From Candidatus Doolittlea endobia (GTDB taxonomy: Bacteria > Pseudomonadota > Gammaproteobacteria > Enterobacterales > Enterobacteriaceae), in the NCBI RefSeq assembly GCF_900039485.1, contig NZ_LN999833.1, forward strand, positions 372,001 through 436,000: 64,000 bases of DNA, given 5' to 3'. Of this stretch, positions 34,052-48,623 are shown in pieces; the stretch's first letter is position 1; each line of letters begins with the position of its first letter. The position numbers and the translations under genes were made by a program. Under the pieces are notes generated by a model, which saw only the letters and a list, made by a program, of their open reading frames with translations, had not been told where the DNA came from and did no database searches.

Positions 34052-34311
34052 CGTCTCAGTTCGGTAATATTGCAAGCAAGAACTATCTGAAGCGTTGAAT
34101 AGCTTTTTGTAGTGGTTAAGAAATTTGTATCGCGTTTATTATACGCTAAGTGCCGGATCACGGCCTGTGCTTGCTACAGGTTTTTACTAATCATAGCGCA
34201 TGGACATGAACAAAATATTTAATATGGATCTTTATCCGCTGAGTATTTTGTTCACTCTCCGACTTTTAAGTTAAAGAAGACCTTATAAATGAATATGCAT
34301 AATTACTAACA

Positions 34312-34338
34312 GTATTAATCATTTCTGTAGTGTCTATG
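34312..34338 (+). repeat. Dispersed repeat, copy 3
   Basis: Reads GTATTAATCATT then TCTGTAGTGTCTATG, related to copies 1, 2 and 4. Confidence 0.4.
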
Positions 34339-34910
34339 AATTTCTTGCTCTAAAATATATACAAAGGCGCATTACCTGATTCAATTATAAGCATGGAATA
34401 ATCAACGGCTCATTACATACATCAAACCATGCCTTCTCTATTTTAGAGCAAATCATAACTGCACCATTAGGGGCTATTATGACTTACAGATAGATTATAA
34501 AAAATCACCGTGTATCTTATGAAAGACCATTATAGAATGTAAGCTTAAAACAAGATTTTACTTATGTTTTGATAATTAATGCATAATCTATTTATAAGGT
34601 TTTCTCTGACTTAAGTGTCAGAGAGTGAACAAAATACTCAACTGGTATAGCGGTATAATTTGAATTTACATACCAATATCAAACGTCTTGGTTGTAAAAT
34701 ATTGCATAATTATACTAGTATTCAGGATATGTCGTGGTGTTTCATAGGACAAAAGGTAAAAAGAAAAAATTAAGAATAAGAGTCTACATCAATGATGACA
34801 ATAAGAAACAGTAACATTACGAATTCCTCTTCACGCATATGCTCAGTGGGACATCCTTTTCGTCAAGCGCTGCGTGAAACGCTAAGCGTAACTAGGCAGC
34901 CCAGTTTTAT

Positions 34911-46319: not shown

Positions 46320-46682
46320 GGTGTACAACCTCTGATAGAAGCGGCCGCTTCAGATTAAAGAACAACAAATTATTTTAATAAAAACTTTACCGTAAATATA
46401 GTATTTATCGTACAAATAAGGGAAACATTGCTGTCACGAGAGACACCTTATAAAATCGCAAAATAATTTTACTATAAAATAGTAACATAATAAAGATATA
46501 GATACCTATGTTTTAGGAATCGAACAAAGCTTCTGATTCTATTGTATGACTCACTCACAATAAAGCGAGACTTTTCTTCAAAAAACTGACCGCGCCACTT
46601 GTTTGATCAGGAATTAAGCAAAGTCGTCATCATATACTTACTTTTGTAGCTAAATAGGCTATAATAGTTTATTGTCTAGTGT
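46320..46682. other. Gap between panB and tRNA-Arg with tRNA promoter
   Basis: About 360 bases. TATAAT at 46660-46665 sits at promoter distance before the tRNA-Arg gene. Nothing else recognised; hemL/hpt-type neighbours of panBC are absent. Confidence 0.5.
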
Positions 46683-46754
46683 GTCTCCGTAGTTAAACGG
46701 ATATAATAAGCCCCTCCTAAGGGCTAGTTACAGGTTCGATTCCTGTCGGGGACG
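46683..46754 (+). tRNA. argW: tRNA-Arg (anticodon CCT)
   Basis: A complete cloverleaf: acceptor GTCTCCG/CGGGGAC (one G-U pair), D arm TAGTTAAACGGAT, anticodon stem GCCCC/GGGGC-like around CTCCTAA (anticodon CCT), T arm ACAGG-TTCGATT-CCTGT, discriminator G. It matches E. coli argW. CCA is not encoded directly after position 73. TATAAT lies 18 bases upstream. argW is a known phage and island attachment site in enterobacteria; a large inverted repeat begins 184 bases downstream. Confidence 0.94.
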
Positions 46755-46938
46755 TTACCATAAAGAAATCTATCAAGATTCATAGCTGTCGTTATGAGTT
46801 AAGGGCGAAGGTTTTACACGTAAGACCCTGGTCTGTATACATTAACCGAGACTCAAGTTTAATGCATATAGCGAAAATCTTTTCCTTAAAAGATGTAATC
46901 ACAACCTTGTTATAGTGAAGCCGAACATAACATTCATT

Positions 46939-47383
46939 TAACATCGTGACCTCCCTCGACATTACATCTGCAAGCAGATTTTGGAAAGCATTCCCGCTTT
47001 ATTTGCGCTATGAGACGCTCATAGCTATCGTGAATATGGTAATACATGATTTTGATGCATTCTTGGCACGAATATTAAGAATTCTTATATAAGAAATGGC
47101 CGTTTTTGTGTTTTATTATGTTTTGAAGCAAGACAGGCACAAACAATAACGCCCGTTTATCAGTGGCAAACGGTAGAGCGGTATTTACGTACTTACATCA
47201 ACCATCCTGACTTTCAGCAGGATTTTATGTTGAAAGCTAATTCCCAATATTCGTGCCAACACTACATCAAAATCATGTATTACCATATTCACGATAGCTA
47301 TGAGCGTCTCATAGCGCAAATAAAGCGGGAATGCTTTCCAAAATCTGCTTGCAGATGTAATGTCGAGGGAGGTCACGATGTTA
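46939..47383. repeat. Large inverted repeat, arms about 138 bp, spacer 169 bp
   Basis: Arms are 46939-47076 and 47246-47383. The outer 119 bp of each arm (46939-47057 and 47265-47383) are identical in reverse complement with no gap; five mismatches follow and then 14 more matching bases. Each arm carries the same open reading frame read inward (left, plus strand from GTG 46947; right, minus strand from 47376): TSLDITSASRFWKAFPLYL, then RYETLIAIVNMVIHDFD. I do not recognise this protein. It lies between argW and the gloB remnant, neither of which is part of it. It could be a head-to-head duplication of a gene fragment, a miniature mobile element with very long terminal repeats, or an island remnant. 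Confidence 0.9.
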
Positions 47384-47510
47384 TAGTAATTGCATCACTC
47401 TTTGTTAAAAGATCGATAAACATGAGCACATATTAACCATTGCCTACTTCTGACTCATAAAGAATATCACATCTTCACATTTTATGACAGCTAAAAATAA
47501 CGAGATTACG

Positions 47511-48261
47511 ATGAATCTTATTAGTATTCCCGCATTAGTGGATAATTACATTTGGGTTTACACAATAATGATAGGCGGTGCTTAATAGTCGATCCTGGTG
47601 CTGCAACACCAGTATTGCAGGTATCAGCCGCCAACCGTCTAACCCCTGTTGCTATTTTATTAACTCATCATCACCAAGACCATATTGGCGGCGTTAGGGA
47701 GTTGCTGCAGCATTTCCCAGTGCCTATCTATGGCCCAGCAGAAACCTGTTTTAAAGGGGCTACGAAAATAGTTAACGAAGGTGATAAGCTAACATTATTA
47801 AACTATACCTTTAGCATAATGGCGTTACCTGGTCATACGCTAGGTCATATCGGATTTTATAGCGCACCCTGGCTTTTTTTGCGGAGACACGATTTTTCCC
47901 GCCGGTTGCGGCCGCCTCTTTGAGGGTACCACCAAGCACATGTATCAGTCTTTTCAGAAGATCAATCAGCTTCCGTCAGATACTCTTATTTGTGCCGCGC
48001 ATGAGTACACTTTAAGTAATTTAAACTTTGCTGCTGCCTTGCTACCACGAGATAACATTATCGCTGATTATCAGCGTAAAATTAAAGAGTTACAGTTGCA
48101 AAAAACCAAGTCTGTTGACAAAACTGTATTTAGAGCGACAAATTAATCTTTTCTTACGTTGTCATGACGTTGATTTACACAATCAATTAAGTATTCATCC
48201 TTCTCCTGGCGAGGAATGGCGCATTTTTGCGGCATTGCGCGAAAAAAAAGATCTTTTCTGA
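47511..48261 (+). pseudogene. gloB: gloB remnant (hydroxyacylglutathione hydrolase)
   Basis: Glyoxalase II hydrolyses S-lactoylglutathione in methylglyoxal detoxification. The gene is full length but has three single-base shifts. From ATG 47511 [16 protein letters not shown] runs to a shift near 47558. [23 protein letters not shown] (metal-binding THHHxDH) and [18 protein letters not shown] follow to an extra T in a T7 run near 47875. [33 protein letters not shown] follow to a third shift near 48122, then [11 protein letters not shown] to KKDLF and the native stop at 48259-48261. All segments are collinear and highly conserved, so inactivation is recent. Confidence 0.93.
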
Positions 48262-48623
48262 AGATTTAAAAGATATCGTCAATGCATTATAGACATTAGT
48301 TAATTGTTTACAAGGTCTTATTGAACTGAACTGACTATTTAATAAACAAAATATACTCTTTGAGTTGGATAACGTGGCTTAACTTGAATGCCACTACTTG
48401 AACAAACGTTTTTTTAAAAAACCATGTTTTACATAGCTATTAGCAAATATGAGTAATTGTATTCTAGACTTTAGATTATATTAAATTGCGCATCATGCTG
48501 GTATAGTTCTGCATCTAGATCTTAAATGTATTATCGATGTTTTCATCTTGTGACGACAGTCGCTAAAATAAGCGAGCAATTTCGTTATTCATCCGGCTTG
48601 AAAGGCTTCTTTCGGAGAGAAAT
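48262..48623. other. Gap upstream of yebC
   Basis: About 360 bases holding copy A of a longer dispersed repeat (48479-48570). No gene recognised; aspS and nudB, neighbours of yebC in E. coli, are absent. Confidence 0.5.
48479..48570 (+). repeat. Repeat segment, copy A (upstream of yebC)
   Basis: About 90 bases alignable with 53836-53932 upstream of fpr. Shared features in order are ATTAAATT, CATCATGCT, GTATA.TTCTG, a TTAA.GTAT stretch and TGACRACAGTC. Both contain a TATAAT-like box and lie upstream of a plus-strand gene. Confidence 0.55.

Follow-up and report, generated by a model that had tools for sequence, protein, structure and literature searches.

The expansion of insertion sequences at the onset of symbiosis and their later decay are well described (PMC3899985). 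Judging by the title of Cordaux 2009, as cited in PMC3004938, gene conversion of non-functional transposable elements has also been reported from an obligate endosymbiont. Template switching turns imperfect inverted repeats into perfect ones (PMC7202029), and switching between inverted repeats characteristically occurs at short spacing (PMC8604942). In E. coli, RecA is not needed for template switching, the reporter being an 18-bp quasipalindrome (PMC6357072), while SbcCD of the same species cuts hairpins at a 246-bp interrupted palindrome (PMC3315005).

We analyzed a long inverted repeat located in a window of 64 kb, i.e., the whole stretch of DNA under study. The window belongs to a genome of 846,562 bp, consisting of two contigs of 834,734 and 11,828 bp. 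This size, the presence of decayed genes, and a family placement among symbionts with small genomes agree with a reduced genome of an insect endosymbiont. The repeat most probably goes back to two independent fossils of IS1-family elements that were homogenised after their decay, either by gene conversion or because replication switched templates between the two close inverted copies.

Structure and identity of the inverted repeat

The following features were identified at the locus:

46682..46755, + strand: tRNA-Arg(CCT), a bystander (tRNA search)
46860..47115, + strand: left IS1-family remnant, insA region, model positions 89–349 (nhmmer with the genome's own IS1 profile, E 9.6e-36; aligns to the IS1 of a relative)
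46939..47057, + strand: left arm, putatively homogenised tract (exact repeat search, pair comparison)
47172..47201, + strand: scrap of the insB 3' part in the spacer, model positions 666–704 (nhmmer on the spacer, E 3.5e-4; blastn, 27 bp at 89%)
47215..47405, − strand: right IS1-family remnant, inverted, insA region, model positions 142–344 (nhmmer with the genome's own IS1 profile, E 1.4e-30)
47265..47383, − strand: right arm, putatively homogenised tract (exact repeat search, pair comparison)
47512..48292, + strand: gloB-like pseudogene (metallo-beta-lactamase fold), frame-shifted, a downstream bystander (Lactamase_B, E 1.6e-14 on the open piece 47552–47920; frame breaks in the sequence)

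The perfect inverted repeat (46939–47057 and 47265–47383) had arms of 119 bp, 100% reverse-complementary with zero mismatches, exactly as the original prediction had claimed; the tRNA-Arg(CCT) gene, beside which the repeat had been placed, was located at 46682–46755. The whole structure was 445 bp long, with a central gap of 207 bp. Ungapped extension of both arms to 47083 and 47239 gave a 145-bp match with five mismatches (positions 47058, 47060, 47062, 47077, and 47078 of the left arm) and a gap of 155 bp. All of these mismatches were confined to the terminal 26 bp (p ~2.6e-4 versus an even spread); their clustering at one end suggests at least two copying events of unequal extent. In 30 first-order Markov sequences with the dinucleotide composition of the window, the longest exact inverted repeat reached only 14–22 bp; therefore, a chance origin of the 119-bp repeat is excluded. 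Further copies of the arm, for which a genome search had been proposed, did not emerge: no third full copy was found in the genome.

Both arms are decayed fragments of insA from an IS1-family element, and the earlier guess of a mobile-element remnant was borne out. The remnants were delimited with nhmmer and a nucleotide profile, iterated from the IS1 matches of the genome itself; the envelope of the left one spanned 46841–47136. A possible trace of the left terminal repeat (IRL), GACTCAAGTTT, lay just upstream of it (before 46860), the ends of the remnants being strongly eroded. Comparison of a 471-bp region with 60 related genomes gave one weak outside match, situated within an IS1-like element of a relative (genome G004, locus L004). 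This element consisted of two frames with the Zn_ribbon_InsA, HTH_Tnp_IS1, and DDE_Tnp_IS1 domains and aligned across both arms. No close relative carrying the locus itself was found among the 60 genomes, and the arm sequence had no exact match in the genomes of other species.

The insA-like frame was interrupted by stops in both arms and carried a 15-bp deletion and a 4-bp insertion. An intact transposase frame was absent: the IS1 remnants are fragmentary, frame-shifted, and internally deleted, and can yield no transposase. A 48-codon frame reading toward the centre was indeed present in each arm, as originally described; its status as a gene was rejected, since it runs in a different frame from InsA over frame-shifted, decayed insA, and the 48-residue peptide matched no Pfam family. 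The annotation thus loses a false gene. The 100-codon frame across the right arm (P0001) gave nothing significant in Pfam, PHROGs, NCBIfam, plasmids, or phages, and no Rfam families besides tRNAs were identified.

Two further suggestions of the original prediction, an island remnant at argW and a miniature element, did not hold. We failed to find a second copy of the argW 3' end (att duplicate) in the window with up to three mismatches allowed; argW is a bystander with no visible role in the repeat. A miniature element (MITE) was rejected because the arms are internal insA sequence rather than terminal repeats and lack a third full copy in the genome.

IS1 fossils across the window and the genome

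The relative's IS1, used as a query, produced 72 fragment matches in the genome under study. PF03400 had 11 matches there, most of them with internal stops. With the genome's own IS1 profile, about 25 decayed remnants were revealed in the 64-kb window, i.e., one per 2.5 kb. The genome contained at least 108 remnants, a lower bound since they were sampled from stretches around IS1 matches. Fossil IS1 probably makes up a good part of its non-coding DNA. The second contig of 11.8 kb also carried IS1 remnants, and another one was located at 48304–48427, after the gloB-like pseudogene.

A second adjacent inverted IS1 pair was present in the window (34224–34482, − strand, and 34567–34699, + strand). 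Its members were 81% identical over 74 shared columns and contained an exact 20-bp inverted repeat (34240–34259 and 34621–34640). This pair probably went through the same process on a smaller scale or at an earlier time.

Comparison of the arms and rival explanations

The 108 sampled remnants formed 2834 pairs overlapping by at least 40 columns, with a background identity of 0.634 on average (standard deviation of 0.059). The arm pair ranked at the top of all 2834, with an identity of 0.845 and 115 consecutive aligned columns without a difference. Within the tract, the two copies were identical in 114/114 columns; beyond it, they agreed in 4/12 columns on the outer side and 24/42 on the inner side. 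IS1 homology continued past the edges: the inner flanks matched intact IS1 in 29/50 (left) and 30/43 (right) columns, and the right outer flank matched the relative's IS1 in 9/20. The arms had 29 substitutions relative to intact IS1 in common, as well as the 15-bp deletion and the insertions. Thus, shared derived changes were combined with a sharp drop of identity at the tract edges, while IS1 homology went on.

Since the decay is common to both arms, copying should have come after most of the erosion or have recurred. The sharp edges together with the continuing homology favour the homogenisation of two copies that were already in place over a fresh inverted duplication. By our own estimate, the last copying dates back no further than about 5% of the period since the two copies diverged; the estimate rests on 0/119 differences (95% upper limit of 2.5% divergence) against a background of ~36%, corrected to ~50%. 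The original prediction had offered recent duplication, ongoing gene conversion, or selection; recent or repeated homogenisation of the arms agrees with the second of these, while no evidence points to selection for an RNA stem.

The common decay and the 100% identity could likewise be explained by a recent local inverted duplication, in which the locus started from a single decayed IS1 and one event placed an inverted copy of part of it about 200 bp from the source. Fold-back or template-switch insertion is able to create new inverted copies, and the right outer flank, with its 9/20 columns, is only weakly IS1-like. However, the homology of the right copy to intact IS1 continues inward past the tract (30/43), where the left copy differs from it (24/42), as two separate insertions would; the confinement of all five mismatches to the end of the 145-bp match also speaks against a single duplication, which we regard as unlikely. 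The difference of the inner arm ends and of the flanks, and the right copy's own IS1 sequence past the tract, argue against an assembly artefact, i.e., doubling of one arm by a chimeric or hairpin read or by repeat mis-assembly. Although close identical inverted arms are a classic trouble spot for assembly, the structure is short (445 bp), and such an error is very improbable.

Maintenance of the arms by the function of a DNA or RNA stem is scarcely credible. The predicted fold of the strand is indeed a near-perfect stem (−185.7 kcal/mol as DNA, z −33), but this is a trivial consequence of identical arms, which consist of decayed transposase DNA; no Rfam family was matched, promoter-like sites were not above chance, and adjacent IS1 fossils elsewhere demonstrate weaker forms of the same effect. 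The identical tract therefore very likely reflects concerted evolution of junk DNA, and not a functional element, a new gene, an island, or an RNA.

With homogenisation of two fossils as the preferred explanation, the following course of events may be proposed. Two IS1-family elements of opposite orientation would have come to lie a short distance apart behind tRNA-Arg(CCT). Both would then have died and eroded by substitutions and deletions, alongside about 100 or more other IS1 copies. Because the two fossils were close inverted repeats, one arm could have served as a template for the other, and copying of a tract of at least 119 bp would have made the decayed arms identical. The likeliest routes would be either gene conversion within the chromosome, dependent on RecA, or quasipalindrome correction, in which replication switches template at a hairpin. 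The IS1 identity of both arms, their common decay, and the sharp tract edges are observed; the copying event and its route are what we infer.

Possible routes of copying and relation to known systems

Among inverted remnant pairs, those with a gap of up to 120 bp had above-background identity (7 pairs, p 2e-4), whereas pairs 120–600 bp apart did not (p 0.58); identity fell with the gap (Spearman −0.60, p 0.03). The 120-bp cut-off was set post hoc, and the distance effect is only suggestive. Two near direct pairs were also above the background, which is not predicted by a purely inverted-repeat mechanism. Other adjacent inverted IS1 pairs demonstrated much weaker effects: the second-longest identical run, an exact inverted repeat of 35 bp, belonged to abutting remnants at C1:780442-780589 (− strand) and 780588-780719 (+ strand; locus L058).

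The genes recA and ruvABC were present in the genome, so that RecA-dependent conversion is possible. RecA, RecB, MutS, and the large subunit of Exo VII (xseA) were intact; the idea that loss of recB or mutS enabled the copying was accordingly rejected. The genome search detected no genes for SbcC, SbcD, or Exo I, and the absence of SbcCD may let a hairpin-prone repeat persist or be tolerated. Given that the E. coli reporter uses only 18 bp (PMC6357072), 119 bp would be long for a single event. Template switching and RecA-dependent conversion appear about evenly matched. A bolder proposal is that template switching over at least 100 bp continually perfects adjacent inverted IS1 fossils in this genome, where SbcCD and Exo I were not found, converting dead transposons into long hairpins, and that remnants genome-wide record tract length versus spacing; we put it forward tentatively and consider it rather doubtful.

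With this reading, a puzzling identical repeat in fast-decaying DNA becomes a datable copying event between fossils. At least 100 dead IS1 copies that share both an origin and a genome could serve as a calibrated set for the distance and length of homogenisation without hairpin nucleases.

Compared with the IS1 family proper, the arms and the spacer scrap align to insA and insB of the relative's IS1, although here only fragments, frame-shifted and internally deleted, are left. The case resembles that of Cordaux 2009 (PMC3004938), the title of which indicates that conversion keeps dead transposable elements in an obligate symbiont; it differs, as far as the title tells, in that our elements are fragments arranged as a close inverted pair, a single tract of 119 bp was detected, and the conversion mechanism is putative. 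Quasipalindrome template switching (PMC7202029, PMC6357072, PMC8604942) has in common with our locus the perfecting of an imperfect inverted repeat, sharp tract edges, and an effect of short spacing, but the 119-bp tract and the 207-bp spacer are longer than those described from bacteria and yeast in these papers. Mitochondrial genes of Nematomorpha also contain long perfect arms, and repeat conversion, not function, has been proposed as their cause (PMC6649704); those repeats lie in functional genes, whereas the IS1 arms lie in junk DNA. The locus thus adds a clear new case to a process already known.
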